From NCBI RefSeq assembly GCF_020179405.1, contig NZ_JAICBZ010000025.1:1-48001 (forward strand): DNA of 48,001 nt, read 5' to 3'. Below are positions 1,108-32,666 of this stretch, in pieces. The stretch's first letter is position 1. The number at the start of each line of letters is the position of its first letter. Made by a program: the position numbers and the translations under genes. This DNA comes from Xinfangfangia pollutisoli (lineage in GTDB: Bacteria > Pseudomonadota > Alphaproteobacteria > Rhodobacterales > Rhodobacteraceae). The notes below the pieces were generated by a model. The model was not told the DNA's origin, made no database searches, and was given only the letters and a program-made list of their open reading frames with translations.

Positions 1108-1131
1108 GGCGGGCCTTTGGTCTTGCGGCAA

Positions 1132-1166: not shown

Positions 1167-1219
1167 GTGAAGCCGAAAGGAAGGGGAAAGCCGCTTTGCC
1201 CCCTTCGCGCTTCGGTCAC
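1167..1219 (-). other. Long imperfect hairpin over the pcaG stop codon
   Basis: The segment folds into an interrupted stem. The paired blocks are GTGA/TCAC, CCGAA/TTCGG, GAAG/CTTC, a GGGG/CCCC stretch and AAAG/CTTT around a CCG loop, with small bulges between them. The pcaG stop (1216-1218) lies inside the outer arm. Like the shorter hairpin beside it, it probably acts on the pca mRNA, for example as a barrier to 3' decay that sets pcaG against pcaB levels. Confidence 0.45.
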
Positions 1220-4731: not shown

Positions 4732-4738
4732 TCAGGCC
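4725..4738. other. 14-bp palindrome made of two abutting stop codons
   Basis: GGCCTGATCAGGCC is a perfect palindrome. Its centre is the TGA of pcaQ (4729-4731) directly followed by the TCA complement of the stop of the convergent gene (4732-4734). It has no loop and no U tract, so it is not a classical terminator, although it could form part of a bidirectional stop for both transcripts. Confidence 0.4.
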
Positions 4739-5553
4739 CGCCCCGCCGCCCGCAGGATGCCCTTGGTCGCCGACAGCGCCATTTCGGCCCGGGCCAGCGG
4801 ATCCAGCTTTTGCGCCAGCGCGCGATGCGGCACCTCGACGCTGACCGTCACGCCTTCGGGCATCGCCCGCGCCAGCCCGATCAGGTCGATGCCGCCCTCG
4901 CCGGGGAAAAGCCGCTCGCCGCGGGCGATGCGGATCAGGCCCTCGTCCGACGGGTCATAGGGCACGGCACCATCGCAGAACTGCACGTAATTCGCCCGGG
5001 CACGCGGCAGGGCGGCGATCTGGTCCAGCGTGGTGGAGGATCGGTCGTAATGCAGCGCATCGACCAGCACGCCGCCATTCGGCGCCCCCGCGGCCTCGAC
5101 AATCGCAGCCGCGGCGGTCAGGTCGGGCACCGCCGTCCAGGGCATGAATTCCAGATCGGCGGTCAGCCCGCGCGGCGCGGCCAGCCCGGCAAAACGGGCG
5201 AAACTGTCGGTCAGCCGCGCGCGATCGGTGTCATCGCCCGCCACCAGGATATGCCGCGCCTTCAGGGCGGCGCAGCGGTCAAGGAAGCGGTCGAACAGGC
5301 CCCAGTCGTTTTCCGCCTTCAGCCGGATGATTTCCACATCGCCGACCGTCACGCCGGTTTCGTCCAGCGCGGCCAGCACCTCGGCCAGCACGGCGTCGTC
5401 GGTCAGCAGCGGATAGTCCGGCTCGCCGCTGGCGGCGGCGGGCAGGATGCGCAGGCCGACCATCTGATAGCCGGTTTGCGCCGCGATGCGCACGGCCTCG
5501 ACCGGGCCGACATCGAAAGTGGTCAGGAAAGCAAGCGAGATCGGATGGGCCAT
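4732..5553 (-). CDS. Sugar-phosphate isomerase/epimerase-like TIM-barrel protein
   Basis: This 273-aa protein looks like a xylose-isomerase-like TIM barrel (AP endonuclease 2 superfamily), a fold used by sugar isomerases, IolE-type dehydratases and 3-dehydroshikimate dehydratases. Candidate metal-site segments are TADLEFMPWT, GVLVDALHYDRS, YVQFCDGA and VSVEVPHR; these carry the E, D, Q and E positions seen in the superfamily. The start at 5553 (MAHPISLAFLTTFDVG) was chosen because an upstream extension runs back into the NIPSNAP gene. It is the last gene of the operon Gfo/Idh - IclR - flavoprotein - NIPSNAP - this gene. Its substrate is unknown; a ring dehydration or isomerisation feeding protocatechuate is plausible. 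Confidence 0.75.
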   Translation of the reverse strand: MAHPISLAFLTTFDVGPVEAVRIAAQTGYQMVGLRILPAAASGEPDYPLLTDDAVLAEVLAALDETGVTVGDVEIIRLKAENDWGLFDRFLDRCAALKARHILVAGDDTDRARLTDSFARFAGLAAPRGLTADLEFMPWTAVPDLTAAAAIVEAAGAPNGGVLVDALHYDRSSTTLDQIAALPRARANYVQFCDGAVPYDPSDEGLIRIARGERLFPGEGGIDLIGLARAMPEGVTVSVEVPHRALAQKLDPLARAEMALSATKGILRAAGRA

Positions 5554-5558
5554 GGCAG

Positions 5559-6170
5559 TCACTTCAAGGGCGAGAAGGGAAGAGGCAGCGCGATCTGGCT
5601 GGTCATCTCGGGCGACAGCCAGTCGGGCCCGCCCTTGGGCGGCCATTTGCCATCGGCCACCGATTTCGCCCGCGCCTCGGCCCGGGCGGCCAGGCTGGCA
5701 TAGGGCCAGATCTGGGTCACGCGCGGCTCGCCATCCAGCCCGTACATGGCGACGGTCAGCTTGGAATAGGCCTCACGCGGGGGGACGGCCTCGGCCCATT
5801 TGCCCATGGTGGGCATGATGCCGTTGATCTTGGTCTTGTAGGTGCGGAATTCATAGACCGGACCGAAGCTGCCGGGTTCGACCGGCGGCAGGAAGTCGAA
5901 GGCGCGGTAGCTTTCCATCGTCAGCCGGGTCAGAAGTTCCGTGCAGCCGAAGGGGTTGTCGCTGCGCAGGGCGCGCTCGCGTTCGTCCATCATCTCGGCC
6001 AGCGTGTCGAAGCCGCGCAGCAGGAAGACGCGGTTCAGGCTGCCGATATCGGTGCCCCAGGCGCCCAGCAGGCGGCCCTTGCCGGCGCCGACCCAGGCCT
6101 CGATGCCGGGGCTGGCCTTGCCGGCGCCGAAGATCACCGTGTCCAGCGTGGACAGTTCATAATAGCTCAT
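5559..6170 (-). CDS. NIPSNAP-family protein (first copy)
   Basis: This 203-aa protein resembles NIPSNAP proteins, a dimeric alpha-beta barrel family of largely unknown function. The segments GAWGTDIGSLNRVFLLRGFDT and GPVYEFRTYKTKINGIMP fit two ferredoxin-like repeats of about 100 aa each. No catalytic residues can be assigned. Its ATG overlaps the stop of the upstream flavoprotein gene by four bases (6167-6170), so the two are translationally coupled, and only five bases separate it from the downstream TIM-barrel gene. A second NIPSNAP gene (19928-20491) sits in another flavoprotein operon of this window, which suggests a shared but unknown accessory or ring-modifying role. Confidence 0.8.
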   Translation of the reverse strand: MSYYELSTLDTVIFGAGKASPGIEAWVGAGKGRLLGAWGTDIGSLNRVFLLRGFDTLAEMMDERERALRSDNPFGCTELLTRLTMESYRAFDFLPPVEPGSFGPVYEFRTYKTKINGIMPTMGKWAEAVPPREAYSKLTVAMYGLDGEPRVTQIWPYASLAARAEARAKSVADGKWPPKGGPDWLSPEMTSQIALPLPFSPLK

Positions 6171-7897
6171 GTGTCTTTCCTTTCTGTCAGGCCCGCAACG
6201 GGCTGGCCGGCCAGGACAAGGCCGGCAATATGGCCGAAGGTCATGCCGGGGCCCAGGGTGATGCCCCCGGCGGGATAATGGCCGCCCATGATCGAGGCCA
6301 TGTCGGCCCCGACCGCGAACAGGCCCGGGATCGGCGCGCCGCCTTGTGTCAGCACCCGGGCGGCGGGATCGGTCTGCAACCCCGCGAAAGTGCCCAGGCT
6401 GCCGGGCACGATCTGCACCGCGTAGAAGGGCCCGCGGGTCAAGGGCGCAAGCGAGGGGTTGGGCCCATGCGCGGCATCGCCCTGCACGCGGTTATAGGCG
6501 CTTTCGCCCCGGTGGAAGTCGGGGTCGCGGCCCTGCGCGGCGCCTTGGTTGAAGCGGGCGATGGTCGCCTCAAGCGTGGCCGCCGGAATGGCGCAGGCAC
6601 GGGCCAGGTCGGCAATGGTCCGGCCGCGTTTCAGATAGCCCGCGCGCAGCGCGCGGCCCAGCGGGAAGGGGAAGGGCTTGGCCCAGCCCAGCCCCCAGCG
6701 CCGCTGCGCCTTGTGGTCAGCGATCAGCCAGCATCGGGGCTTTTGCCCGGGCGGGGTGGCGGCGATCAGTGCCTGCATGAAGCCGTGATAGCTGTCGGCC
6801 TCGGACACGAAGCGCTGGCCCTGCGGCGTGACGGCGATGATCCCGGGCTTGGCGCGCTCGACCAGATGCGGGAAATGCGCTGGCGGGCCATCTTTCTGCG
6901 GCACAAGCGAGACTGGGGCCATGGCCGTGTTCCAAGCCAGCGCCCCATCGGTGGCCGCGCCTGCCGCTTCGGCCAGCCGCAGCCCGTCGCCGGTATTCGT
7001 GCGCGGCGCGGCCGAGGCATGGTCGCGCCCGCCCGCCGCCCCGGCCCAATCGGCCAGGCGCTGCGGATCATGCGGGAACCCGCCCGAGGCCAGAACCACG
7101 CCCCGCGCCGCCCGGACCAGCACCTCGCCCCCCGCCGTTGCCAGCCGGGCGCCGGTGACCCGCCCCGTCTCGCCGACCAGCCCCACCGCCGGCGCACTGT
7201 CCAGAAGCGTGACGCCCCGGTCCAGCGCCGCCCGCATCAGCCGCGCCACCAGCGCATTGCCATTGGCCAGCCGCATCGGCCGGCCATGGATCAGCCGGTC
7301 GCGCCAGATCGCCAGCACCCGCCGCGCCACATAGGCGGCGGCCCTGGGCTTGCGCGTCGCATCGAAGAACTGGCGCATATCGGCGGCAGGCCCGATCCCG
7401 GCGCCCCAAAGGCTGACCACTTCCAGCGGAGGCCGCAGCTTCTTGATCCAGGGGCCCAGGGCGCGGCCGTCGAACGGCTCGACCGAGACCGACCGCCCGC
7501 CCTTCCCGGCCCCGGGCGTTTCATGGAAATCGGGAATCCGGTTGCCATCGATCCAGCGCATCCCGGCGCGGTCGCGCAGGAACCGCACCATGCGCGGGCT
7601 CATTTCAAGGAAGACCGGCAGGCGCGGATCGCCGGCGCGGTTGCCCAGTTCCGCTTGCAGATAGCGCATCGGGTCTTCCGGCGGCTCGTCAATGCCCGCC
7701 TCTTGCGCCAGGGGATTGCGCGGAATCCACAGCCAGCCCCCCGACCAGGCCGAAGTGCCGCCGAAGACCGCGGCCTTCTCGGCCACGATCACCTTCAGCC
7801 CGAATTCCGCGGCCGTCACCGCGGCGGTCAGCCCCGGCGCGCCCGATCCGATCACCAGCACGTCACAGTCAAGGACGCGGCTGTCCTGCCGTTCCAT
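6167..7897 (-). CDS. FAD-dependent oxidoreductase, KstD/fumarate-reductase-like (first copy)
   Basis: This 576-aa flavoprotein belongs to the FAD-binding family of fumarate reductase and 3-ketosteroid delta1-dehydrogenase. The dinucleotide motif GSGAPG is at residues 17-22, followed by VAEKAAVFGGTSAWSGGWLW. The C-terminal flavin region contains IPGLFAVGADMASIMGG and YPAGGITLGPG. It has no signal peptide and no haem-binding motif, so it should be a soluble cytoplasmic dehydrogenase. Enzymes of this family remove hydrogens next to a ring ketone. It lies in an operon with an IclR regulator and a NIPSNAP gene. The ring-desaturase role is inference from family and neighbours, and the substrate is unknown. 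Confidence 0.85.
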   Translation of the reverse strand: MERQDSRVLDCDVLVIGSGAPGLTAAVTAAEFGLKVIVAEKAAVFGGTSAWSGGWLWIPRNPLAQEAGIDEPPEDPMRYLQAELGNRAGDPRLPVFLEMSPRMVRFLRDRAGMRWIDGNRIPDFHETPGAGKGGRSVSVEPFDGRALGPWIKKLRPPLEVVSLWGAGIGPAADMRQFFDATRKPRAAAYVARRVLAIWRDRLIHGRPMRLANGNALVARLMRAALDRGVTLLDSAPAVGLVGETGRVTGARLATAGGEVLVRAARGVVLASGGFPHDPQRLADWAGAAGGRDHASAAPRTNTGDGLRLAEAAGAATDGALAWNTAMAPVSLVPQKDGPPAHFPHLVERAKPGIIAVTPQGQRFVSEADSYHGFMQALIAATPPGQKPRCWLIADHKAQRRWGLGWAKPFPFPLGRALRAGYLKRGRTIADLARACAIPAATLEATIARFNQGAAQGRDPDFHRGESAYNRVQGDAAHGPNPSLAPLTRGPFYAVQIVPGSLGTFAGLQTDPAARVLTQGGAPIPGLFAVGADMASIMGGHYPAGGITLGPGMTFGHIAGLVLAGQPVAGLTERKDT

Positions 7898-7941
7898 TCA
7901 CCCCCGCTTTCCAGCGGCGGCCCTGTGGAACGGCCCCCGCA

Positions 7942-8772
7942 TCATGCGCTTTTTCGGTCAGTCAGGCCGTCAAGGGCCCGCAGATTGGCTGCAAAGAACC
8001 GCGATCCGGCCGCGGCTGCGCCCAGTTCGGCGGCCGCCTGCTGCAGAAGCGGCGCAAGTTCCGACATGCGCTGCGCGGTCATCCGCACCGCCGGGCCGGC
8101 AATCGACAGGCAGCCCAGCACCGGGCCTTCGCCCTCATAGCGCACCGGCACCGCCATGGCGGCCATGCCGGCGATATAGCTGTCGACCGCGGTCGCATAG
8201 CCGCGCGCCCGCGCCTCGGCCAGCTGCTCGATCAGCAAGGCCAGGCTGCGCGGCGCGTTCTGGCCCTGCCCGTCGGCCTGCCGCATCAGCCCCTGGGCGC
8301 CCACGCGCACCAGCGCCTCTTCATCGCTCATCGAGGCAAGCCAGGCCTTGCCGCCGGCCGAGCTGGCCAGGTGGACGACCACGCCCTGTTCCTGACCGGG
8401 GTCATAGCGCAGCCCGCGTGTCGCCCCCTGGGCCACCGCGACCCAGATCAGATTGTCGCCGTCAATGACCGAAAGCCGGATCAGCTCGCCACTGTCGGCC
8501 GCCAGCGCATCCAGCACCGGCTGGGCGATATCGGTGATCCCGGCCCGGCCCAGAAAGCCCAGGCCCATCGCCGGCAGCTTGATCGTCAGCGCGTAATCGC
8601 CCTGCTGGTGCAGCTGGCGCACATAGCCCAGCCGCGCCAGTTCCTGCAGCGTGCGATGCACGCCGCTGGCCGGCTGATCCGTCGCCGCCGCGATGGCCGA
8701 GACCGGCAGGCCGGTCGGATGACCGACCAGCAGTTCGACGATGGCGAGGGATTTCTCAATGACGCTGCTCAT
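7942..8772 (-). CDS. IclR-family transcription regulator
   Basis: This 276-aa IclR-type regulator has an N-terminal winged helix-turn-helix (about residues 1-60: SSVIEKSLAIVELLV, then LPVSAIAAATDQPASGVHRTLQEL) and an effector-binding domain from about residue 80 to 260. The segment YIAGMAAMAVPVRYEGEGPVLGCLSIAGPAVRM is typical of that domain. It lies inside the operon it probably controls, between the Gfo/Idh dehydrogenase and the flavoprotein. IclR-type regulators often sense aromatic or hydroaromatic acids (PcaR, PcaU, PobR). A candidate operator pair, TGGAATTNNNTTCAA, lies upstream of the operon (9937-9951) and in the promoter at 24557-24571. Which ligand it senses cannot be read from the sequence. 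Confidence 0.9.
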   Translation of the reverse strand: MSSVIEKSLAIVELLVGHPTGLPVSAIAAATDQPASGVHRTLQELARLGYVRQLHQQGDYALTIKLPAMGLGFLGRAGITDIAQPVLDALAADSGELIRLSVIDGDNLIWVAVAQGATRGLRYDPGQEQGVVVHLASSAGGKAWLASMSDEEALVRVGAQGLMRQADGQGQNAPRSLALLIEQLAEARARGYATAVDSYIAGMAAMAVPVRYEGEGPVLGCLSIAGPAVRMTAQRMSELAPLLQQAAAELGAAAAGSRFFAANLRALDGLTDRKSA

Positions 8773-8799
8773 GACCCGACTTCCGCTTTTGAACCTGCT

Positions 8800-9867
8800 T
8801 CAGGTTTCGGGACCCAGCGGCGAAAGGTCAATGGCGACCCTTTGACCCGTGGCTGCGGCGCTGCGGATCGCATCCAGAACGATCAGATTGGCCGTGGCAT
8901 CGCGGGCCGAGACCAGCGGCCTGCCGCCAGCCCGGATCAGATCGGCGAAATGCGACAGCTGCGCGGCATAGGGATCGCCCGGCGCGATCTCGATCCGGCG
9001 CGGGGCCAGGGGCACGGTCCAGTCCGGCGTGCCGGGGGGCTGCCAGAGCGTCAGATCGGGCAGCGACAGGCCAGCCTTGGTGCCCGCATAAAGATGGGCC
9101 TGCACCGGATGGGCCGGAAAACGCGCCGGATTCTCGCCCGCCGACAGATCCCAGGCCCAGGGCCCGGTTGCGGCATCGGAAATGCACAGCGTCGCCAGCC
9201 CGCCCGCGGCAAAGCCCAGGCAGACCGCGGCGGTATCCTCGACCGCAAAGCCCCGACGGGCGTTCGAGGCCACAGCCTGGACGAAGGCGATCTCGCCGAA
9301 GATGTGGCGCAGCAGGTCGATCTCATGCACCAGATTGATCAGCAGGGGCCCGCCTGCACCGGGGCTGCGCCGCCATTCGGCCTGGAAATAACTGTCGGGC
9401 TTGGCCAGGCTACAAGTGACCGTCGCCATGACCAGATCGCCGATTTCACCATTGGCCACCGCCGCGCGGGCGGCCTGGATGATCGGGTTGTGGCGTCGGT
9501 GATGACCAACCAGCAGCGGCACGCCGGTTTCCCGCGCCACCGCAATCAATTGCAGCGCCGAGTCCAGGCTTTCCGCCACCGGCTTTTCCAGCAGCACCGG
9601 CAGGCCCGCGCGCAGCAGGGCGGCCGCGATCGGCAGATGGGTTTCGTTCGGCGTGGCGACGATGGCGGCTTGCGCCAGGCCCGCGGCGATCAGCGACTGG
9701 GCATCGGGAAGGCAGGGCACCGACAGCGAGTCGGCATAGGCCCGCGCCGCCGGCGTCGGATCGACCAGCGCCGCCAGATGCATGCCCTGCATGCGCGCCA
9801 GCGTCTCGACATGCGTTCGCCCGATGGCGCCCGCGCCGATGACCGCAACTTCCAGACGTGTCGACAT
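8800..9867 (-). CDS. Gfo/Idh/MocA-family NAD(P)-dependent oxidoreductase
   Basis: This 355-aa dehydrogenase has an N-terminal Rossmann fold with GAGAIG at residues 11-16, the EKP motif of the family at 94-96 (VLLEKPVAES), and a C-terminal segment AGGPLLINLVHEIDLLRH (172-188) matching the usual G-G-x-x-x-x-x-x-x-H-x-x-D-x-x-x pattern. The family oxidises sugar and cyclitol hydroxyls such as myo-inositol. Here it leads an operon in an aromatic-acid region, so a hydroxyl of a cyclohexane carboxylate such as quinate or a relative is a possible substrate, but this is inference. The ATG at 9867 gives full family length. The promoter region is shared with the divergent shikimate-dehydrogenase-like gene. 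Confidence 0.85.
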   Translation of the reverse strand: MSTRLEVAVIGAGAIGRTHVETLARMQGMHLAALVDPTPAARAYADSLSVPCLPDAQSLIAAGLAQAAIVATPNETHLPIAAALLRAGLPVLLEKPVAESLDSALQLIAVARETGVPLLVGHHRRHNPIIQAARAAVANGEIGDLVMATVTCSLAKPDSYFQAEWRRSPGAGGPLLINLVHEIDLLRHIFGEIAFVQAVASNARRGFAVEDTAAVCLGFAAGGLATLCISDAATGPWAWDLSAGENPARFPAHPVQAHLYAGTKAGLSLPDLTLWQPPGTPDWTVPLAPRRIEIAPGDPYAAQLSHFADLIRAGGRPLVSARDATANLIVLDAIRSAAATGQRVAIDLSPLGPET

Positions 9868-10113: not shown

Positions 10114-10200
10114 ATGACCCGAAGCAGCCTTTACAGCCCCAAGGCCCCTGCCCGTCGCGGCGCGGATGCTGAACGCGATTCAGGATATGTCGCAGCATGA
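10114..10200 (+). CDS. Possible 28-aa leader peptide upstream of the AroE-like gene
   Basis: An ATG at 10114, preceded by the purine-rich AGGAGCGAGGAAACC, opens a 28-codon frame (MTRSSLYSPKAPARRGADAE and eight more residues). Its TGA at 10198-10200 overlaps the ATG of the AroE-like gene at 10197 (ATGA). The good ribosome-binding site and the four-base stop-start overlap suggest translational coupling. The peptide resembles nothing I recognise. It could instead be a remnant of a longer gene, or the true 5' end of a frameshifted one. Confidence 0.35.
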   Translation: MTRSSLYSPKAPARRGADAERDSGYVAA

Positions 10201-11009
10201 CCGCCCCGTTGCGCATTGACGGCGAGACCCGGATCTTCCCGATCCTCGGCCATCCGATCGGACAGGTGAAATCCCCCGCCTCGCTCAGCCAGATCATGGC
10301 CGATCGCGGCTTCAACGGCATGGTCGTGCCCGTCGACATCCAGCCCGAGGATCTGGCGGCCTGGCTGACCCAGGCGCGGACCATGCGCAATTGTGACGGC
10401 ATCATTGTCACCGTGCCGCATAAGGTGCCCTGCCTGGCCTTCTGCGCCAAGGCGACGGCCCGCGCCCGGGCCTCGGGCGCGGTCAATATCATGATCCGCG
10501 ACGGCGAGGGCTGGATCGGCGACGCAACCGATGGCCATGGCTATCTGGACGGCATCGCCGCCGAAGGCTTTGACGTGGCGGGCAAGCCCGCGCTTCTGGT
10601 GGGCACCGGCGGCGCCGGCTCGGCCATCGCTTACGAGATCCTGGCCCGCGGCGCCTCCAGCCTGGCGCTGCACGATATCGACACGGCCCGGCGCGACAGC
10701 CTGATCGCGCGGCTGGACAAGGATTTCCCCGGCAAGGTCCGCATCGGCGGCACCGATCCGCGCGGCTTTGCGCTGGTGGCCAATGCCACGCCCCTGGGCA
10801 TGCGCGAGGGCGATCCGCTGCCGGTTCAGGTCGATCTGCTGACCGCCGATCAATTCGTGGCCGATGTCGTCACCCGCCCCGCCGTACCCCCGCTGATTGC
10901 GGCGGCGCGCGCCAAGGGTTGCGCGACCATGCCCGGGTCGGGAATGTTCGACGCGCAGGCGCTGCTGCTGGCGGAACTGCTGATGGGGACACGCAAGGTC
11001 GAGGTCTGA
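10197..11009 (+). CDS. Shikimate dehydrogenase-like protein (AroE/YdiB family)
   Basis: This 270-aa protein has the AroE architecture. The N-terminal substrate domain carries the catalytic Lys K76 (TVPHK), N97 and D112 (ATDGHGYLDG). The Rossmann domain carries GTGGAGSA at 136-143, and a NATPLGM motif follows. The canonical Ser-Lys-Ser of the carboxylate pocket reads Val24-Lys25-Ser26 (GQVKSP), so one of the two Ser that bind the shikimate carboxylate is missing. That points to a catabolic paralogue acting on quinate or a related acid rather than the biosynthetic AroE. It leads the importer operon, which fits uptake and oxidation of a hydroaromatic acid. The exact substrate is not known. Confidence 0.82.
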   Translation: MTAPLRIDGETRIFPILGHPIGQVKSPASLSQIMADRGFNGMVVPVDIQPEDLAAWLTQARTMRNCDGIIVTVPHKVPCLAFCAKATARARASGAVNIMIRDGEGWIGDATDGHGYLDGIAAEGFDVAGKPALLVGTGGAGSAIAYEILARGASSLALHDIDTARRDSLIARLDKDFPGKVRIGGTDPRGFALVANATPLGMREGDPLPVQVDLLTADQFVADVVTRPAVPPLIAAARAKGCATMPGSGMFDAQALLLAELLMGTRKVEV

Positions 11010-11125
11010 GGGGACCGCGACCGGATGGGAGGATGTGGCGCCGCCGTCAGGCGGGGCCCGGGCCGCAGCGGTTGCCGGATGGCCGCGCGCGCCGGAAAGA
11101 ACTCCGGCGAACATGGGAGGAAAGA

Positions 11126-12253
11126 ATGTTCAAGACCCTACTGGGAACGGCCGCGCTGGCGCTGGCCCTGACCGCCACCTCGGCCCTGGCCGAAATCAAG
11201 ATTGGCTCGATCGTCGAACTGTCGGGCGCGGGCGCCGCATCCGGCACCAATTTCCGTGACGGCGTGCATATGGCCTTCGAAGAGATCAACGCCGCCGGCG
11301 GGATCCTGGGCGAGCAGGTGGCGATCACCGAATATGACAGCCAGACCGATCCGCAGGTCAGCCGCGCCATGGTGCAGAAGGCGATCGACGACGGCGTCTA
11401 TGCCATCACCGGCACGGTGTTCTCGTCCTCGACCATCGTGAACATGCTGGTGGCCCAACAGGCCGGCATCCCGCAATTCACCGGCTCGGAAGCGCCGAAG
11501 ATCACCCAGATGAACAACCCCTACATCTTCCGCACCGCCTTCGGATCGCAGAAGGGCATTCCGAAGATGACCAAGTACATGGCCGAGGAAATGGGGATCA
11601 AGAAGGTCGCCGTCGTCTGGGCGAATACCGAATTCGGCAAGGGCGGCCATTCGGCCTTCCTGGACGAGATCGGCAATTTCGGCATCGAGATCGTCGCCGA
11701 CATCCCGACCGAACAGGCGCAGACCGATTTCTCGGCCGATGTGCTGAAGGCCAAGAACTCGGGCGCCGATGCGGTCTTCGTCTATGTGACCGAAGAGGAA
11801 TCGGCCCGCTTCCTGCGCGAGGCGCAGAAACAGTCGATCGGCCTGCCCCTGATCGGCGAGACCACGCTGATCGGCGCCAAGGTGATCGAGCTTGCGGGCG
11901 ATGCCGCCAATGGCGCGATGGGCCATGTCGGCCTGACCGCGGCGGCCGACATTCCGGCCGTGCAGGAAATGGTCACCAAGTTCACCGAGAAGTTCAAATA
12001 CACCCCCGATCACAACGCGATCAAAGGCTATACCGCGGCCTATGCGATCAAATGCGTGACCGAGAAGAACGGCAAGGTCGACAGCCAGGCGCTGGCCGAT
12101 GCGATGCATGGGCTGACCCTGACCGCCGCCGAATGCCCCGGCGTGCTGATGGATGTCAGCTGGGACGAAAACGGCGAGATGTCGCGCGAAAGCTTCTTCG
12201 TCGAAGTGAAGGACGGCAAGCAGACGATCAAGGCGATCCTGCCGCCGAACTGA
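11126..12253 (+). CDS. ABC importer periplasmic substrate-binding protein, LivJ-type
   Basis: This 375-aa type I periplasmic binding protein of the branched-chain amino acid (HAAT) class starts with a clear signal peptide (MFKTLLGTAALALALTATSA, cleavage near ALA-EIKIG). The mature part begins KIGSIVELSG and has the usual EEINAAGGILG and YDSQTDPQ stretches. The ATG at 11126 follows GGGAGGAAAG and is right for secretion; a longer in-frame start near 11033 would bury the signal. Many members of this class bind aromatic or hydroaromatic acids rather than amino acids. The neighbouring AroE-like gene and catabolic genes suggest such a ligand here. It is followed by a strong hairpin pair, as expected for a highly expressed binding protein. 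Confidence 0.92.
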   Translation: MFKTLLGTAALALALTATSALAEIKIGSIVELSGAGAASGTNFRDGVHMAFEEINAAGGILGEQVAITEYDSQTDPQVSRAMVQKAIDDGVYAITGTVFSSSTIVNMLVAQQAGIPQFTGSEAPKITQMNNPYIFRTAFGSQKGIPKMTKYMAEEMGIKKVAVVWANTEFGKGGHSAFLDEIGNFGIEIVADIPTEQAQTDFSADVLKAKNSGADAVFVYVTEEESARFLREAQKQSIGLPLIGETTLIGAKVIELAGDAANGAMGHVGLTAAADIPAVQEMVTKFTEKFKYTPDHNAIKGYTAAYAIKCVTEKNGKVDSQALADAMHGLTLTAAECPGVLMDVSWDENGEMSRESFFVEVKDGKQTIKAILPPN

Positions 12254-12264
12254 TCCCGAACCGA

Positions 12265-12326
12265 CGGCCCCGCCTGTGACGGGGCCGCAACCGGGGCAGG
12301 CGCCGCTCCCGCGCCTGCCCCGTTTT
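12265..12326 (+). terminator. Double hairpin with T run between binding protein and permease genes
   Basis: The first stem is CGGCCCCG/CGGGGCCG (12265-12272 with 12280-12287). The second is an 11-bp perfect stem CGGGGCAGGCG/CGCCTGCCCCG (12292-12302 with 12312-12322) directly followed by TTTT. The second has the form of an intrinsic terminator. Because the permease and ATPase genes continue on the same strand, partial read-through is likely, giving more binding protein than membrane components. Confidence 0.75.
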
Positions 12327-12376
12327 CCCGCCTGACCGGAGTCAGCGTTCCGGCCCCCAGCTTCAAGGATACTCCC

Positions 12377-14987: not shown

Positions 14988-14988
14988 G

Positions 14989-16604: not shown

Positions 16605-16718
16605 CTGCCGCGCCCCCCTGCGCGCTGACGAATTGTGCAAGAAATGGCGGGCATCGTCCATTGGTTCCACCCCCGCCCGCCCGCTATTTCCAGATCAGGG
16701 AATGAAGGGAGGACGACG

Positions 16719-19186: not shown

Positions 19187-19927
19187 GGCGCTGGTCACCG
19201 GCGGCGCCGAGGGCATCGGCCTTGCCATCGCGCGGGCGCTGGCGGCGGCGGGATACCGCGTCACCATCGCCGATCTGGACGGCGCGAAGGCGGCCGAGCG
19301 GGCGGTTGAACTGGGCGCGGGCCATCGGGGTCTTGCCTGCGACATCACCGACGAAGCGCAGGCCATGGCCGCGGCCGCGACGGCGCCCTTCGAGGTGCTG
19401 GTGAACAATGCCGGCATCGGCGACAGCCATCTGCCGACGCTGGATCAGGGGATCGACGCCTTCCGCCGGGTGCTGGACGTGCATCTGTCGGGCAGCTTCC
19501 TGATGACGCGCGAAGTGGCGCGGGGGATGGTCGCGCGCGGGCGCGGGGCGGTGGTGAACCTGTCCTCGATCGCCGGGCTGACCGGCCTGCCCAAGCGCAA
19601 CGCCTATGGCGCGGCCAAGGCCGGAATCGTGGCGATGACGCGGGCCATGGCCTGCGAATGGGCGGGCCGGGGCGTGCGGGTCAATGCCGTGGCCCCGGCC
19701 TTCGTGGAAACAGCCTTGGTGCGCAAGCTGGCGGATGCCGGCCGGATCGACCTGCCCACCATCGCCCGGCGCACACCCATCGGCCGGTTGATCCGGGCCG
19801 AAGAGGTCGCGGCGGCGGTGGTCTTTCTGGCGTCCGACGCCGCCAGCGGCATCACCGGCGCGGTGCTGCCGGTTGATGGCGGCTGGACCGCGTTTGGCGA
19901 TTTCGGCGATGCCGCGGATCCGCAGCC

Positions 19928-19931
<4 letters not shown>
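19179..19931 (+). CDS. Short-chain dehydrogenase/reductase (second of pair)
   Basis: This 250-aa classical SDR has TGGAEGIG at residues 7-14, D32 in IADLDG (NAD preference), the NNAG motif near residue 76, and the catalytic S130, Y143 and K147 (AYGAAK). It overlaps the previous SDR gene by eight bases and the NIPSNAP gene by four. Two different SDRs side by side suggest two hydroxyl oxidations or two stereoisomers of one substrate. The protein is complete and all catalytic residues are present. The substrate is unknown. Confidence 0.88.
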
Positions 19932-21671
<1,740 letters not shown>

Positions 21672-21738
21672 GGCCCATTCAAGCCTTTCCGGGGCGGGAA
21701 ACTGCGGTGATACTGGCCGCGCCCCGCGGAGGACCGCC

Positions 21739-23655
21739 ATGAAAACCTCGATCGCCACCGTGTCGATTTCCGGCAGTTTCGCCGACAAGCTGACGGCGAT
21801 CGCCGAGGCCGGCTTCGACGGAATCGAGATTTTCGAGCAGGATTTCCTGGCTTCGGATTTCTCGCCGCGCGCGGCGGGGCAGATGGTGCGCGACCACGGG
21901 CTTGCGATCACCCTGTTCCAGCCCTTCCGCGACTTCGAGGGCCTGCCCGAACCCTTGCGCAGCCGCGCCTTCGCCCGGGCGCGGCGCAAGTTCGATCTGA
22001 TGGCGGAGCTGGGCACCGATCTGGTGCTGGTCTGTTCCTCGACCCATCCCGAGGCGATGGGCGGCATCGACCGCGCGGCCGCCGATTTCCACGAACTGGG
22101 CGAAATCGCCGCCGAACGGGGCCTGCGCGTCGGCTATGAGGCGCTGTGCTGGGGCCGCCATGTCAACGACCATCGCGACGCCTGGGAAGTGGTGCGCCGC
22201 GCCGATCACCCCAATGTCGGGCTGATCCTTGACAGTTTCCACACGCTGGGCCGCGGCATCGACCCCGAAACCATCCGCCGCATCCCCGGCGACCGGATCT
22301 TCTTCGTGCAGATGGCCGATGCGCCGGCGATTCCGATGGACCTGCTGTATTGGTCGCGCCACTTCCGCAACATGCCCGGCGAGGGCGATCTGGACCTGAC
22401 CGGCTTCACCCGCGCCGTCATCGCGACGGGCTATTCCGGCCCGCTGAGCCTGGAAATCTTCAACGACCAGTTCCGCGCCGGCCCCGCGCGCCAGACCGCG
22501 CGCGACGGGCATCGCAGCCTGATCGCGCTGATGGACCGGGTCCGGCGTGCCGAACCCGCCCTGAAGCCCGACCTGCCCGCCTTCCCGCCGCCCGCGCCGG
22601 TCGAGCGGGTGGAATTCGTCGAATTCGCCACCAGCGCCGAAGAGGCCGCGCCTCTGGAGGCGCTGCTGGCCGCTGCCGGCTTCGCCAGGGCCGGGCGGCA
22701 CCGGACAAAGCCCGTGACCTTGTGGCAGCAGGGCGGGGTGAACCTGCTGATCAACACCGCCGCCCAGGGCTTTTCCCATGCCGCCTGGGCCAGCCATGGC
22801 ACGGCCGTGTCCGAGGTGGGCCTGATGGTCCCCGATGCCCGCGCCGGCCATGCCCGCGCCCTGGCCCTTGGCGCGCCGGCGCATCATGAACCGCATGGTC
22901 AGGCCGAGCTGGAGATCCCGGCGCTGCGCGGGCCCGGGGGTAGCGTGATCCGGCTTCTGGACCGGCAGTCGGATCTGGCGCGGATCTGGCAGGTGGATTT
23001 CGACCTGACAGCGCCCGCCGAACGGCAAGAGAATGCCGGGGCAGATCCTGGCGCAGATGCGGGGGCCGGGCTGACCGCCGTGGATCATGTCGGCCAGACC
23101 ATGGCCTATGACCAGATGCTCAGCTGGGCGCTGTTCTACACCACGCTGTTTCAGGCCAGCCGCAGCCCGATCACCGATGTGATCGACCCCGACGGCATCG
23201 TACGCAGCCAGGCGATCGAGACCGGCGGCCTGCGCGTCACGCTGAACGGGGCCGAGGCGCCGCGCACCCTGGCCGGCCAGTTCATCGCCGATACGTTCGG
23301 CGCCAGCGTTCAGCATCTGGCCTTTGCCAGTGACGACCTGTTCGCCACCGCCGCCCAGATGGCGCGGCGCGGCCTGCCGGTCTTGCAGATCGGCGCGAAT
23401 TACTATGCCGATGTCGAGGCACGCTTCGGCCTGGACGCGGCGTTCACCGCACGGCTGCGGGCGGCCAATCTGCTCTATGACGAAGATGCAGGCGGCCGCT
23501 TCCTGCAATTCTACTGCCAGGCCCGGCCGGGTGGGCTGTTTCTGGAATTCGTCCAGCGCATCGGCGCCTATCGCGGCTATGGCGCGCCCAACGCTCCCTT
23601 CCGCATCGCCGCGCAAAAGCGCGACGCGCGCCCCGCCGGCATGCCGCGCTTCTAG
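21739..23655 (+). CDS. quiC: Two-domain 3-dehydroshikimate dehydratase (TIM barrel + HPPD-like)
   Basis: This enzyme converts 3-dehydroshikimate to protocatechuate, linking quinate and shikimate catabolism to PcaGH. The 638-aa protein has an N-terminal xylose-isomerase-like TIM barrel (1-280) with metal ligands E134, D165, Q191 and E239. These match the residues I know for Pseudomonas QuiC1. A C-terminal 4-hydroxyphenylpyruvate-dioxygenase-like VOC region (about 290-620) keeps a possible His-His-Glu triad H450, H526 and E603. The QuiC1/QsuB type has this two-domain layout. It lies 67 bases after pobA as the last gene of the operon, and its stop overlaps that of the convergent gene (CTAG). The C-terminal reaction is unproven in this family. 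Confidence 0.92.
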   Translation: MKTSIATVSISGSFADKLTAIAEAGFDGIEIFEQDFLASDFSPRAAGQMVRDHGLAITLFQPFRDFEGLPEPLRSRAFARARRKFDLMAELGTDLVLVCSSTHPEAMGGIDRAAADFHELGEIAAERGLRVGYEALCWGRHVNDHRDAWEVVRRADHPNVGLILDSFHTLGRGIDPETIRRIPGDRIFFVQMADAPAIPMDLLYWSRHFRNMPGEGDLDLTGFTRAVIATGYSGPLSLEIFNDQFRAGPARQTARDGHRSLIALMDRVRRAEPALKPDLPAFPPPAPVERVEFVEFATSAEEAAPLEALLAAAGFARAGRHRTKPVTLWQQGGVNLLINTAAQGFSHAAWASHGTAVSEVGLMVPDARAGHARALALGAPAHHEPHGQAELEIPALRGPGGSVIRLLDRQSDLARIWQVDFDLTAPAERQENAGADPGADAGAGLTAVDHVGQTMAYDQMLSWALFYTTLFQASRSPITDVIDPDGIVRSQAIETGGLRVTLNGAEAPRTLAGQFIADTFGASVQHLAFASDDLFATAAQMARRGLPVLQIGANYYADVEARFGLDAAFTARLRAANLLYDEDAGGRFLQFYCQARPGGLFLEFVQRIGAYRGYGAPNAPFRIAAQKRDARPAGMPRF

Positions 23656-24521
23656 CGCAGCTCGGCCAGGGCGGCGGCGATGCCCGCTTCGATCCGGGTC
23701 ACCGGCTGCGGGCCCATCCAGTCCGGCACCGGGCTTGAGGCCAGATCGGCCGGGATGCGCAGGGCCGGCCCCTCGACCGAGATCCCGTTCCAGCCCGATT
23801 GCGCCGCCAGTTCGGCGACGAACTCGGCCATGTCGCGGGTGTCGCCGGCCAGGGTCAGCACCTCGGCCCCCTGTCGCGGCAGGGTAACGCCGGCCACCAG
23901 CATCCGCGCCACGTCGTCGACATGCACAAAGCCGACCCGGCCCGAGAACCGGATCACCGCCGGCGCGCGCCGGACCGAGGCCGCCAGCGCGATCGACGGC
24001 CCCGCGGCAATGCCGCTGCTGATGCCCGGGCCGTAGACGATATAGGGGCGCAGGCCCAGGCTGGGCACGCCATGATCCGCGGCGAAGACCCGCGCCAGGC
24101 CCTCGACCGCCAGTTTGGTCACGCCATAGACGGTCATCGGCTGGGGGTGCTGCGCGTCCTGCGGGCCGAAGACTCCGGCCGTCGACAGATAGGCGACCGG
24201 AATGCCCCGCGCCGCCGCGGCCTGCAGGACATTCAGGCTGGCCATTACGTTGATGCGCACCGCCCGGGCCGGATCGGCCGCGCAATCGACGGTCATGATC
24301 CCGGCCAGATGCACGATTCCGTCGCAGCCCTGGGCGGCGGCCTGCACGATATCGGGCTGCGTCGCATCGCCTGGCACCGCCTCATGCCCGGCGGGCAGAT
24401 CAAAGCGGGCCAGCGCCTGGGGCAGGTCCAGAAGGCGGCAGGCATGGCCCTGGGCGGCCAGCACGCGCAACACCCGCCGGCCGATGAATCCGGTGCCCCC
24501 GACCAGCAGAAATCTTGACAT
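23652..24521 (-). CDS. NAD-dependent epimerase/dehydratase-family oxidoreductase
   Basis: This 289-aa extended-SDR protein has the nucleotide motif GGTGFIG at residues 8-14 and the catalytic Y132 and K136 (VYGVTK) with S113/T114 before them. Members act on nucleotide sugars, lactones or keto acids, and nothing here fixes the substrate. The ATG at 24521 is the first in frame after the promoter. The much longer open frame that runs on to about 26438 is antisense to the third flavoprotein gene and not real. The gene is monocistronic, convergent with quiC (four-base overlap) and divergent from the flavoprotein gene; it shares an operator-like promoter with it. Confidence 0.85.
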   Translation of the reverse strand: MSRFLLVGGTGFIGRRVLRVLAAQGHACRLLDLPQALARFDLPAGHEAVPGDATQPDIVQAAAQGCDGIVHLAGIMTVDCAADPARAVRINVMASLNVLQAAAARGIPVAYLSTAGVFGPQDAQHPQPMTVYGVTKLAVEGLARVFAADHGVPSLGLRPYIVYGPGISSGIAAGPSIALAASVRRAPAVIRFSGRVGFVHVDDVARMLVAGVTLPRQGAEVLTLAGDTRDMAEFVAELAAQSGWNGISVEGPALRIPADLASSPVPDWMGPQPVTRIEAGIAAALAELR

Positions 24522-24543
24522 CCCATCCTCCGTGTTCCGGGGG

Positions 24544-24578
24544 ATCATAACAATAATGGAATTGCATTCAATTATCAA
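24544..24578 (-). promoter_or_regulatory. Promoter of the epimerase-like gene, overlapped by operator-like site
   Basis: On the minus strand, TTGAAT (24566-24571) and TATGAT (24544-24549) lie 16 bases apart; an alternative pair is TTGATA (24573-24578) and TATTGT (24550-24555), 17 apart. Either way the dyad TGGAATTGCATTCAA (24557-24571) sits inside the core promoter, the classical position for a repressor site. The transcript would start about 15-20 bases before the ATG at 24521. Confidence 0.5.
24557..24571. promoter_or_regulatory. Operator-like site TGGAATTgcaTTCAA
   Basis: This is a near-palindromic 15-mer matching the site at 9937-9951 at 12 positions. The overlapping string GAATGCAATT (minus strand, 24560-24569) also occurs at 9921-9930. 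The region lies between two divergent catabolic genes and overlaps the minus-strand promoter. An IclR-type repressor, possibly the one encoded at 7942-8772, is the best candidate. Confidence 0.45.
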
Positions 24579-24641
24579 AACATCTTCCAATTTATGGCCG
24601 GCCATGCGAAGGTCCGGCCCGGTCGCGACAGGGAGGACGGC

Positions 24642-26336
24642 ATGGCCGAGGCATTCGACGCAGAGGTGGATCTTCTGGTCTTTGGCGCGGGGGCGGGCGG
24701 CATGACCGCGGCGCTGGCGGGCGCGATCGGCGGGCTGTCGGTGCTGCTGTGCGAAAAGACCGACATGGTCGGCGGCACGACCTCGACCTCGGGCGGGACG
24801 ACCTGGGTTCCGGGCACGGCCCTGTCGCAGGCCGCGGGCGCGCCCGACAGCACCGAGGATGCCGCGGCCTTCCTGCGCCATGTCGTGGGCAATCGCGGCG
24901 GCGACGCGCTGCGTGCGGCTTTCCTTGAATCGGGCCCGCAGGCGATTGCCGATCTTGAGGCACAGTCCGAGGTCAAATTCGTCGCTGCCGCCGCCCATCC
25001 CGACTATCTTGACGGGCCCGGCGCGGCCTATGGCGGGCGGGCGCTGGCGCCCTTGGCCTTCGATGGCCGCAAGCTGGGCGCCGATTTCGCGCGGCTGCGG
25101 CCACCGCGGGCGGTGTTCATGGGGCTGGGGGGGATGATGGTCGGCCGGGCCGAGCTGCCGGCGCTGCTGTCGCCCTTTGCCAGCCTTGCCAATCTGCGCA
25201 CCACGCTGGGCATCGTGCTGCCCTATTTCCGTGACCGGCTGAGCCATGCCCGCGGCACCCGGCTTCTGATGGGCAATGCGCTGGCCGCGCGGCTGTTCTA
25301 CAGCCTGCGCCAGCGCCGCGTGCCGATCTGGTTCGACAGCCCGCTGACCGAATTCCTGCGCGAGGGCGACCGGATCATCGGCGCCGTCGTCACCACACCG
25401 CAGGGCCCGCGCCGCATCCGTGCCCGGCGGGGCGTGGTGCTGGCCACTGGCGGGATCGGCTGGAACAAGGACCTGCGCGCCCGGCTGTTCCCCGCCCAGA
25501 TCGCCCCCGTCAGCCAGACGCCCGACGGCAATACCGGCGACGGCATCGCCCGCGCCGAGGCGCAGCTGGGCGCCGCGGTGGATGACGGCTGCGACAGCGC
25601 CGGCCTGTGGATGCCCTGTTCCATGCTGCGCCAGAAGGACGGCACGACCGCGATCTGGCCGCATATCCTGCTGGACCGGGCCAAACCCGGGCTGATCGCC
25701 GTGGGGGCCAACGGGCGACGCTTCGTCAACGAATCCGACAGCTATCACGATTTCTGCATGGGCATGGTGCGCGCCGGCCTGTCCGAGGCCTGGCTGATCG
25801 TCGATGACCGCTTCATCCAGCGCTATGGGCTGGGCCTGGTCCTGCCCGGCGGGCGCGGCTTGTCGCGGCTGTTGCGGCAGGGCTATCTGACCCGCGCCGC
25901 CACGGCCGAGGCGCTCGCCCGGCAGATCGGCGTCGACCCGGCCGGGCTGGCGGCCAGCATCGCGGCCAACAATGCCTTCGCCCAGACCGGGGTCGATGCG
26001 GATTTCGGCCGCGGCAGCTCGGTGATGAACCGCTTCAACGGCGATGCGCAGGCGGCCGGCAATCCCTGCCTTGGCCCGATGGACAAGGCGCCCTTCTACG
26101 CGCTGAAAGTGGTGCCGGTGGATCTGGCCGGCAGCGGCGGCCTGCGGATCGATGCCGATGGCGCAGTCCTGGACCGCGCGGGCGCGCCGATCCCCGGGCT
26201 TTATGCCTGCGGCAACGATGCGGCCTCGATGTTTCGCGGCACCTATCCCGGCCCTGGCACCACGATCGGCCCCGCCATGGTCATGGGCTGGCGGATCGCG
26301 CAGCATCTGCGCCAAAGCGCCGCCATGGCCGCCTAG
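24642..26336 (+). CDS. FAD-dependent oxidoreductase, KstD-like (third copy)
   Basis: This 564-aa flavoprotein is the third family member in the window. It has GAGAGG at residues 15-20, then LLCEKTDMVGGTTSTSGGTTWVPG. Its C-terminal flavin region, IPGLYACGNDAASMFRGTYPGPGTTIGPAM, is closer to 3-ketosteroid delta1-dehydrogenases (YPGPG-x-TIGP) than the YP-x-x-GITLGP of the other two copies, so it may catalyse a different desaturation. The ATG at 24642 follows GGGAGGACGGC. It is a single-gene unit divergent from the epimerase-like gene. Its product is probably cytoplasmic, since no signal peptide is seen. Confidence 0.86.
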   Translation: MAEAFDAEVDLLVFGAGAGGMTAALAGAIGGLSVLLCEKTDMVGGTTSTSGGTTWVPGTALSQAAGAPDSTEDAAAFLRHVVGNRGGDALRAAFLESGPQAIADLEAQSEVKFVAAAAHPDYLDGPGAAYGGRALAPLAFDGRKLGADFARLRPPRAVFMGLGGMMVGRAELPALLSPFASLANLRTTLGIVLPYFRDRLSHARGTRLLMGNALAARLFYSLRQRRVPIWFDSPLTEFLREGDRIIGAVVTTPQGPRRIRARRGVVLATGGIGWNKDLRARLFPAQIAPVSQTPDGNTGDGIARAEAQLGAAVDDGCDSAGLWMPCSMLRQKDGTTAIWPHILLDRAKPGLIAVGANGRRFVNESDSYHDFCMGMVRAGLSEAWLIVDDRFIQRYGLGLVLPGGRGLSRLLRQGYLTRAATAEALARQIGVDPAGLAASIAANNAFAQTGVDADFGRGSSVMNRFNGDAQAAGNPCLGPMDKAPFYALKVVPVDLAGSGGLRIDADGAVLDRAGAPIPGLYACGNDAASMFRGTYPGPGTTIGPAMVMGWRIAQHLRQSAAMAA

Positions 26337-32662: not shown

Positions 32663-32666
32663 GGGA

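Follow-up and report, generated by a model that had tools for sequence, protein, structure and literature searches.

Two neighbouring gene sets of Xinfangfangia pollutisoli that probably turn saturated, plant-type ring acids into aromatic acids for combustion by the cell

Described routes and the make-up of the locus

The aromatisation of cyclohexane acids has been known biochemically since the 1970s. In Sinomonas cyclohexanicum the chc cluster consists of the SDRs ChcB1 and ChcB2 and the desaturases ChcC1 and ChcC2, followed by PobA. PMC9795900 describes an aerobic route through a 4-ketone and two desaturases to 4-hydroxybenzoate, lists reports of this conversion of cyclohexanecarboxylate from Acinetobacter, Alcaligenes, Pseudomonas and Gram-positive strains, and cites the Sinomonas chc gene cluster. 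The cyclohexanecarboxyl-CoA (ali/bad) pathway serves the same substrate class by a CoA-ester route.

The window studied here is a 48,001-nucleotide stretch of contig NZ_JAICBZ010000025.1. All genes listed in the initial annotation were recovered, including three KstD-like flavoproteins (FP-A, FP-B and FP-C), two SDRs, Gfo/Idh and AroE-like dehydrogenases, a Liv importer, pobA, quiC and pca genes. That annotation had passed over the IclR and AraC regulators, both NIPSNAP proteins, the extended SDR and the TIM-barrel enzyme. The pca set, described there as complete, holds for pcaD, C, H and G, which exceed their cut-offs, but pcaB scores below its own and is cut by the window edge.

Table 1. Positions, strands and supporting evidence for genes in the window
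Feature	Position	Strand	Evidence
pcaB, cut by window edge	1..1131	-	TIGR02426 342 bits, cut-off 355.75; open at edge
pcaG, protocatechuate 3,4-dioxygenase alpha	1216..1800	-	TIGR02423 227 bits, above cut-off
pcaH	1830..2567	-	TIGR02422 342.8 bits, above cut-off
pcaC	2564..2956	-	TIGR02425 187 bits, above cut-off
pcaD	2956..3702	-	TIGR02427 269.7 bits, above cut-off; predicted start at 3702
pcaQ-like LysR regulator	3829..4731	+	TIGR02424 268 bits, below cut-off 303.8
TIM-barrel enzyme (AP_endonuc_2), candidate ring-ketol isomerase/dehydratase	4732..5553	-	Pfam; predicted start
NIPSNAP, two-domain, module A	5559..6170	-	PF07978, two stretches
FP-A, KstD-like flavoprotein, module A, Phe at Tyr119 position	6167..7897	-	NF004789 751.2 bits, above cut-off 747
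IclR regulator	7942..8772	-	PF01614, PF09339
Gfo/Idh/MocA dehydrogenase	8800..9867	-	PF01408
AroE-like dehydrogenase	10197..11009	+	best NCBIfam 134 bits, cut-off 235; nearest solved sequence 4k28
Liv-type importer	11033..15711	+	binding protein ~11033-12253, LivH 12377-13252, LivM 13249-14223, LivG to 14987, LivF 14989-15711
AraC regulator, divergent from FP-B	15708..16604	-	HpaA-like 139 bits, below cut-off; predicted start
FP-B, candidate KstD-like ring-ketone desaturase, module B	16719..18410	+	family scans, residues, tree; predicted start
SDR1	18407..19186	+	4-base overlap with FP-B
SDR2	19179..19931	+	ChcB2 third-best NCBIfam model, 204 bits, cut-off 350
NIPSNAP, module B	19928..20491	+	PF07978; 4-base overlap with SDR2
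PobA (module B), genome's second copy	20505..21671	+	TIGR02360 638.3 bits, above cut-off 538.7
QuiC, 3-dehydroshikimate dehydratase-like, TIM domain and HPPD-like domain	21739..23655	+	NF042435, PDB 5hmq
Extended SDR, epimerase-like by N-terminal motif	23652..24521	-	conserved neighbour, travels with module A
FP-C, KstD-like flavoprotein, module A	24594..26336	+	NF009477 682 bits, below cut-off 758; residues; tree

Compared over 80 genome loci and plasmids, the island falls into two modules. Module B comprises the AraC regulator, FP-B, SDR1, SDR2 and NIPSNAP and usually adjoins aromatic-acid genes; module A comprises the AroE-like and Gfo/Idh dehydrogenases, IclR, FP-A, NIPSNAP, the TIM-barrel enzyme, FP-C or a sister, the extended SDR and the importer, and is found repeatedly without module B. 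The island is more than a chance assembly: Paracoccus sp. MA, P. pantotrophus, Gemmobacter, Neomegalonema and several Rhizobiaceae share most of its genes in syntenic order, although pobA is missing from the stretches of both Paracoccus and of Rhizobium ACO-34A. An earlier proposal of a joint island in which KstD-type flavoproteins and SDRs aromatise ring carboxylates fits the catalytic residues, the second pobA and the recurrent neighbours; its picture of one pathway with three equal desaturases gives way to a pair of modules that can be told apart and whose flavoproteins form clades of their own.

The island shares the SDR and KstD-like desaturase logic of the S. cyclohexanicum cluster and its exit through 4-hydroxybenzoate and PobA, as that route is laid out in PMC9795900. 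Unlike that cluster, its proteins score below the NCBIfam equivalog cut-offs, module B has one flavoprotein where Sinomonas has two desaturases, and NIPSNAP, AraC and module A are added. No ali/bad gene is named in the window. QuiC resembles QuiC1 of quinate and shikimate catabolism: it aligns to the QuiC model over almost the full length (625 bits, below the NF042435 cut-off of 1200) and to PDB 5hmq, presumably QuiC1 of P. putida, across both domains (E 8e-165), and residues E134, D165, Q191 and E239, which we take to be the metal ligands of QuiC1, are kept in 10 of 10 QuiC rows. Unlike the QuiC1 system, the island adds desaturases, a TIM barrel and a Gfo/Idh protein, and the AroE-like protein falls under every AroE and quinate dehydrogenase cut-off.

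The three flavoproteins

FP-A, FP-B and FP-C each match Pfam FAD_binding_2 end to end. This family occurs at 41 places in the genome, and beyond the three flavoproteins it exceeds 100 bits only on contigs C117 and C1, where we infer a succinate dehydrogenase-type protein and an L-aspartate oxidase. Sequence family and equivalents of Tyr318, Tyr487 and Gly491 are shared with 3-ketosteroid delta1-dehydrogenases (4c3x, KstD1; 7p18, which we take to be AcmB), and these equivalents are kept in all FP-A (8/8), FP-B (86/86) and FP-C types (31/31). Every FP-B and FP-C type also has Tyr119 and thus the full set of KstD residues. FP-A lacks it: Phe stands at this position in the window protein and in seven of eight relatives, with one gap. 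Roles for Tyr318, Tyr487 and Gly491 are given in PMC5348764.

On the NCBIfam models, FP-A, FP-B and FP-C score 470, 559 and 392 bits for ChcC2 (4-oxocyclohex-2-ene-1-carboxylate 5-dehydrogenase; NF053677, cut-off 900), 340, 302 and 281 bits for ChcC1 (4-oxocyclohexanecarboxylate 2-dehydrogenase; NF053676, cut-off 1000), and 396, 418 and 382 bits for 3-oxosteroid 1-dehydrogenase (NF005882, cut-off 788). All three lie below both ChcC cut-offs; they may work like ChcC. In support of the earlier proposal, they score far lower on the TcuA tricarballylate models, and a tree sets them apart from two steroid enzymes, these being its only reference enzymes, on long branches and with no ChcC sequence among its rows. 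Relatives of FP-C at about 49% sit in CoA-ester clusters of Variovorax and Delftia, so family membership by itself does not fix the substrate.

Recurrent neighbourhoods

In the window the FP-B, SDR1, SDR2 and NIPSNAP genes overlap, with 13 bases from NIPSNAP to PobA and 67 from PobA to QuiC. Both NIPSNAP proteins exceed the PF07978 cut-off of 22.3 (71 and 62 bits), and to our knowledge no bacterial function has been assigned to this family. Of the 80 loci, 74 have a NIPSNAP gene no more than 3.5 kb from FP-B, in 45 cases on the opposite strand; we regard this pairing as the most surprising part of the analysis.

The genome has another PobA on contig C145, matching at 60% the island protein, which is thus an extra copy. 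Within 5 kb of FP-B, pobA is found in 14 of 80 loci under 11 genus labels; in 12 of the 14 it lies about 1.7 kb away on the opposite strand, in the divergent arm past AraC, and in the other two on the FP-B strand, so the link survives rearrangement. At the same distance limit, PcaK-like transporters accompany FP-B in 18 of 80 loci from four genera (the member tested scores below the PcaK cut-off) and PobR/PcaU-like regulators in seven, all Acinetobacter. Salipiger carries aliA, aliB and badI nearby, and Seohaeicola a BadH-like gene. pobA occurs in 11 of 42 loci with parts of module A and in 3 of 38 without, and so is not tied to module B alone.

The TIM-barrel gene lies within 720 bases of FP-A in all 15 loci that hold FP-A, eight of which were picked through FP-A or TIM matches and two of which (L022 and L035) are near-identical. 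Its product keeps the residues aligned with E134, D165, Q191 and E239 of QuiC. The extended SDR has no NCBIfam match at 1e-20.

Proposed pathways and alternatives

We favour, at a probability of roughly 55%, a catabolic island for hydroaromatic acids in which two modules both end in protocatechuate. Module B would most likely convert 4-hydroxycyclohexanecarboxylate through the 4-ketone to 4-hydroxybenzoate for PobA: an SDR would oxidise the ring hydroxyl of the cis or trans acid, and FP-B would desaturate next to the ketone, once or twice, by KstD chemistry, in which the tyrosine/glycine pair would enolise the ketone, the other tyrosines take the alpha proton and FAD the beta hydride. The dienone would tautomerise to 4-hydroxybenzoate, perhaps with help from NIPSNAP, and PobA would yield protocatechuate. 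Module A probably acts on a more hydroxylated acid of the quinate, shikimate or dihydroshikimate kind; after import, the AroE-like and Gfo/Idh dehydrogenases, the TIM-barrel enzyme, FP-A, FP-C, NIPSNAP and the extended SDR would oxidise it to a ring ketone, isomerise or dehydrate it, and desaturate it, giving either 3-dehydroshikimate for QuiC or protocatechuate directly.

The lead of the ChcC2 model over the steroid model for FP-B supports this scheme, as do the gene overlaps, the extra pobA, the recurrent neighbours and the kept catalytic residues; for module A, so do the pairing of TIM barrel and FP-A, a type II DHQase beside LivF in four loci and QuiC near FP-A in P. alcaliphilus and Marinovum. 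Several observations count against it: the flavoproteins stay under the ChcC cut-offs, and SDR2 and SDR1 reach only 204 and 157 bits on the ChcB2 model (NF053701, cut-off 350); pobA was not found in the stretches of 66 of 80 FP-B loci, nor in those of the close relatives L009, L010 and L011; pobA also accompanies parts of module A; the single-strand order from FP-B to QuiC is not the usual one across loci; FP-C has relatives in CoA-ester clusters; and the AroE-like protein has Val where AroE has the first of two substrate-carboxylate serines.

The whole island might instead serve quinate and shikimate alone, with the AroE-like and Gfo/Idh enzymes oxidising, QuiC producing protocatechuate, the flavoproteins acting on side substrates such as dihydroshikimate, and PobA present through a shared regulon. 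The island QuiC is the only copy found in the genome, a type II DHQase lies 6–15 bases from LivF on the same strand in four loci (L040, L042, L045 and L047), QuiC lies near FP-A in Marinovum and P. alcaliphilus, and a TRAP–DHQase–quinate/shikimate dehydrogenase-like locus on C1 has no QuiC in the stretch read. Yet quinate requires no desaturase, the extra PobA is joined to FP-B in the window, and three loci (L036, L066 and L074) pair FP-B with PobA where no module A parts were detected; we consider this reading unlikely, if still worth weighing.

That the flavoproteins desaturate steroid-, terpenoid- or naphthenic-type ring ketones as mere neighbours of aromatic genes would suit their best solved relatives, which are 3-oxosteroid dehydrogenases, and the near-equal scores of FP-C on the ChcC2 and 3-oxosteroid models. 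It is improbable given the recurrence of 4-hydroxybenzoate-type neighbours, the position of both steroid enzymes outside the FP clades (two references only, on long branches) and scans of the island that named no steroid-pathway gene beyond the flavoproteins' own matches. A role as reductases like those for fumarate, urocanate or vinylphenol, clearing unwanted enoate intermediates, is more improbable still: the superfamily is shared, but flavocytochrome c and VprA models give 99–149 bits against 392–559 on the ChcC2 model, and the KstD proton-transfer residues are mostly kept.

Under the favoured two-module scheme, module B supplies specific gene candidates for Acinetobacter, Burkholderiales, Rhizobiaceae and Rhodobacterales, module A a second, broader hydroaromatic-acid pathway, and the NIPSNAP family a first testable role. 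More tentatively, many bacterial NIPSNAPs could be dedicated partners of KstD-like ring desaturases, acting as dienone tautomerases or aromatases, and module B could be the Gram-negative set for cyclohexane-acid aromatisation. Module A might then be a widespread pathway, so far undescribed, in which two more desaturases and a TIM-barrel ring-ketol enzyme serve to aromatise cyclohexane acids with several hydroxyl groups. Among the open-access matches listed, no title or abstract opening describes either module. A further difference from S. cyclohexanicum is that no P450 is named in the window, as the initial annotation had remarked; elsewhere in the genome, P450s were found at four places on three contigs.

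Gene content of the island

The initial annotation had described three KstD-like FAD flavoproteins (FP-A, FP-B and FP-C), two short-chain dehydrogenases (SDR1 and SDR2), Gfo/Idh and AroE-like genes, a Liv importer, pobA, quiC and pca genes, and ORF and family scans recovered this set. We determined gene order from an ORF listing, family scans and the composition at codon positions. From right to left, the minus-strand arm in the window runs Gfo/Idh, IclR, FP-A, NIPSNAP, TIM barrel. In the plus-strand run, neighbouring genes from FP-B through SDR1 and SDR2 to NIPSNAP share 4-8 bases; PobA begins 13 bases further on, and a gap of 67 bases precedes QuiC. In addition, three minus-strand ORFs of 351-565 amino acids at 31256-35430 have coding-like composition without an NCBIfam match at 0.001.

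Genes of the island and related loci (L numbers denote neighbourhoods fetched from other genomes and plasmids)
Feature	Position or loci	Strand	Remark
pcaB (cut), pcaG, pcaH, pcaC, pcaD		-	
pcaQ-like LysR gene		+	after pca genes
TIM barrel	4732-5553	-	
NIPSNAP (module A)	5559-6170	-	
FP-A	6167-7897	-	
IclR	7942-8772	-	
Gfo/Idh	8800-9867	-	
AroE-like	10197-11009	+	
Liv importer, five genes	ends 15711	+	
AraC		-	divergent from FP-B
FP-B, SDR1, SDR2, NIPSNAP, PobA, QuiC	to 23655	+	
Extended SDR	23652-24521	-	
FP-C	24594-26336	+	
RNase D-like exonuclease, arabinose-5-phosphate isomerase-like, LptC, LptA, LptB, PtsN-like			right of island
Fourth flavoprotein clade	L011, L023, L026, L028, L030, L031, L034, L038, L040, L043, L045-L047, L049, L050, L052, L057, L095; also L054, L081, L086, L100, L103		
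Type II DHQase	L040 13061-14220	LivF's strand	6-15 bases from LivF (all four loci)
Type II DHQase	L042 15875-17034	LivF's strand	
Type II DHQase	L045 13181-14337	LivF's strand	
Type II DHQase	L047 12668-13827	LivF's strand	

The proposal of one joint aromatisation island survives as to aromatisation; as a single route it is better replaced by two recurrent modules. We read the region, with a probability of about 0.55, as a two-module hydroaromatic-acid catabolic island, in which module B (AraC, FP-B, SDR1, SDR2 and NIPSNAP, here with PobA) would serve a 4-hydroxycyclohexanecarboxylate route and module A (AroE-like, Gfo/Idh, IclR, FP-A, NIPSNAP, TIM barrel, FP-C or its sister, extended SDR and importer) a more hydroxylated acid.

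As had been noted, the family scans name no P450 in the island; those of this genome lie outside the window (contigs C123, C40 and C134). Likewise, no P450 was found at 1e-5 in a six-frame set of 98 loci (L009-L106), a search that distant P450s could escape. A repeat at a looser limit, in which the positive control was found, gave one weak match (L040 18-1256, at the left edge, E 1.2e-5), about 9 kb from FP-B.

Relationships and predicted chemistry of the flavoproteins

Among NCBIfam models, FP-A exceeds the PRK06134 cut-off (751 versus 747), FP-B scores 723 against the same cut-off, and FP-C scores 682 on PRK12843 (cut-off 758). The flavoproteins had been described as KstD-like, with ChcC desaturases and steroid- or tricarballylate-type enzymes as suggested comparisons. 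Membership of the ChcC desaturases of Sinomonas cyclohexanicum is not borne out, as FP-A, FP-B and FP-C score 470, 559 and 392 on ChcC2 (cut-off 900) and 340, 302 and 281 on ChcC1 (cut-off 1000). They are also below the cut-off of 788 for 3-oxosteroid dehydrogenase NF005882 (396, 418 and 382), reach only 141, 125 and 92 on TcuA, and branch apart from 7p18 and KstD1. The latter placement comes from a quick, midpoint-rooted tree of 83 rows in which these two are the only references, long-branched and flagged by the program; it holds no ChcC sequence, so that ChcC is compared by profile scores only. The tree resolves clades of FP-A (15 rows, SH-aLRT 98), FP-B (27 rows, 100) and FP-C (15 rows, 99); the sister of FP-C is a fourth KstD-like clade (23 rows, 100). 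In many loci, the fourth-clade gene adjoins an extended SDR and an AroE-like gene.

PMC5348764 describes catalytic roles for Tyr119, Tyr318, Tyr487 and Gly491 of KstD1. We mapped these residues through 4c3x alignments, using a chain-numbering offset of +20 by our own count, onto the flavoproteins and 125 relatives from loci L009-L097 sorted by best window match (the FP-C types include fourth-clade proteins). The equivalents of Tyr318, Tyr487 and Gly491 are kept in all FP-A (8/8), FP-B (86/86) and FP-C (31/31) types. At the Tyr119 position, FP-B and FP-C types always have Tyr (86/86 and 31/31), and the window's FP-A and seven of the eight FP-A types have Phe, the eighth a gap. Because the KstD residues are mostly kept, desaturation adjacent to a ring ketone is the most likely chemistry predicted from these alignments.

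Recurrence of the modules and candidate substrates

By its best matches among plasmids and genomes, the host is probably Paracoccaceae-like. Paracoccus sp. MA, P. pantotrophus and Gemmobacter share most of the gene set in conserved order, with identities of about 70-94%, and Rhizobiaceae and Rhodobacterales carry it in altered orders; PobA is absent from the fetched stretches of Paracoccus sp. MA, P. pantotrophus and Rhizobium ACO-34A. A scan for FP-B gave 175 relatives, the best 80 of which we retained together with flanks of up to 10 kb; these loci (48 genus or group labels) are mutually related, and counts among them are not independent events. Neighbours in the best 80 of 175, in clusters each named from one scanned member, include an SDR (61/80), a PcaK-like transporter (18/80, under the PcaK cut-off), a PobR/PcaU-like regulator (7/80, all Acinetobacter) and a BadH-like dehydrogenase (5/80, under its cut-off). 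In the same set, 74 loci have NIPSNAP no more than 3.5 kb from FP-B, and 14 have PobA, always within 5 kb and under 11 genus labels. By rough chance, pobA would be this close in about 0.5% of loci (two pobA per 4.4 Mb, about 12 kb examined); the observed excess is smaller than it appears because the loci are related. FP-B and its nearest NIPSNAP are on opposite strands in 45 of the 74, and FP-B and PobA in 12 of the 14, with PobA about 1.7 kb away in the divergent arm past AraC, where Haematobacter carries NIPSNAP and pobA. Thus, the association of FP-B, PobA and NIPSNAP survives rearrangement, and the window's single-strand run from FP-B to PobA is not its conserved form. In Salipiger, aliA, aliB and badI are near FP-B.

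In the simplest reading, module B would convert 4-hydroxycyclohexanecarboxylate through the 4-ketone to 4-hydroxybenzoate and then protocatechuate, an aerobic route described in PMC9795900 and PMC5906575. This resembles the chc route, yet the module falls below the membership cut-offs for ChcB (its SDRs) and ChcC. Island PobA is an extra copy, as contig C145 holds another that is 60% identical.

A clean division of PobA to module B and QuiC to module A was rejected: among the best 80 of 175 FP-B loci, PobA is in 11/42 with module A parts and 3/38 without (p 0.04, against the division) and QuiC in 8/42 and 1/38 (p 0.03), p-values that mean little in related loci. Eight plasmid stretches, selected for their FP-A and TIM hits, carry module A but lack an FP-B orthologue (L098-L103, L105, L106); PobA was not found in them, and QuiC is in two.

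Module A parts also occur without an FP-B orthologue in the fetched stretches of Rhizobium sullae, P. alcaliphilus, Diaphorobacter, Paraburkholderia, Limimaricola, P. methylovorus (two separate places), Marinovum and the actinomycete Rhodococcus sp. PD04. We collected 15 FP-A loci, seven via FP-B (L022 and L035 near-identical) and the eight plasmid stretches. The TIM-barrel gene is within 720 bases of FP-A in 15/15, partly by choice because those eight were fetched for FP-A or TIM hits; an AroE-like match is present in 14, and an annotated shikimate 5-dehydrogenase in the remaining one, Marinovum. The second flavoprotein varies (FP-C or fourth clade), as does the importer (Liv, TctABC or MFS). 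In 21 TIM rows, the residues aligned with QuiC E134, D165, Q191 and E239 are kept in 21, 21, 20 and 21, and His199 in all; other positions of QuiC, among them Q61 and P62, are not kept. The TIM enzyme is thus likely metal-dependent and of the QuiC superfamily, with dehydroshikimate dehydratase activity only putative.

The substrate of module A bears on an alternative in which the island serves quinate and shikimate alone, the flavoproteins act on side substrates and PobA is present by shared regulon. A type II DHQase cluster, named from one member, is in 8 of the best 80 of 175 FP-B loci, directly beside LivF in four and at least 2.4 kb from any module gene tested in the others. This placement, with QuiC near FP-A in P. 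alcaliphilus and Marinovum, points to quinate/shikimate-type acids for module A. Together with the FP-B-to-PobA order peculiar to the window, DHQase beside LivF slightly raises the quinate/shikimate-only alternative, which we still regard as unlikely, and slightly weakens the two-module reading. The genome also has three TRAP-transporter-like genes (by similarity), a type II DHQase and an AroE-family gene on contig C1 (about 125000-129300), likely a separate quinate locus; its AroE-family protein passes PRK12549 (429, cut-off 235) and reaches 276 on the model for NAD quinate dehydrogenase (cut-off 515). Since QuiC is single-copy in this genome at the limit used, island QuiC may serve quinate too.

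In two Azospirillum species, NIPSNAP, Gfo/Idh, SDR and Liv genes accompany a relative of FP-C (about 50%; L104 4858-19718, L112 7613-21728). 3-Hydroxybenzoate 6-monooxygenase and gentisate dioxygenase are close by, an indication that 3-hydroxybenzoate is the end product of related modules. FP-C relatives (about 49%) are also in CoA-ester clusters of Variovorax and Delftia.

The NIPSNAP proteins

Of the three NIPSNAP genes in this genome (matched at four places), two adjoin flavoproteins of the island. With a profile built from clusters of the FP-B and plasmid loci themselves, all 82 NIPSNAP ORFs in the best 80 of 175 FP-B loci are within 3.5 kb of a flavoprotein. A general NIPSNAP-flavoprotein link was rejected: among 96 genomes sampled from the class, this one included, NIPSNAP is in 34 and a strong FP-B match in 10, and one of ten FP-B places outside our genome adjoins NIPSNAP on its contig (G070). 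Therefore, the link is limited to the island's FP type. A NIPSNAP query gave 250 plasmid records, 203 from Rhizobium or Sinorhizobium.

Arg6, Tyr8, Gly45 and Trp54 (module-B numbering) are invariant in a 34-row alignment; in a second alignment, of 26 rows, Gly38, Gly45 and Asn48 are invariant and Arg6, Tyr8 and Trp54 nearly so. The solved relatives listed bear names without assigned function; we take them to have the dimeric alpha-beta barrel fold of some cyclases and isomerases. That NIPSNAP acts as a tautomerase or aromatase is offered as a proposal only. NIPSNAP was not found in the module A stretches of Marinovum and Rhodococcus, the latter a module A-like set on a plasmid of Actinomycetota (L102 11718-19038). 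An FP-A relative, split into three pieces, is in a 5.4 Mb record listed among Klebsiella pneumoniae plasmids. In a metagenome-assembled genome labelled Phycisphaerae (Planctomycetota; L089), NIPSNAP and TRAP genes accompany a relative of FP-B, through either transfer or binning error.
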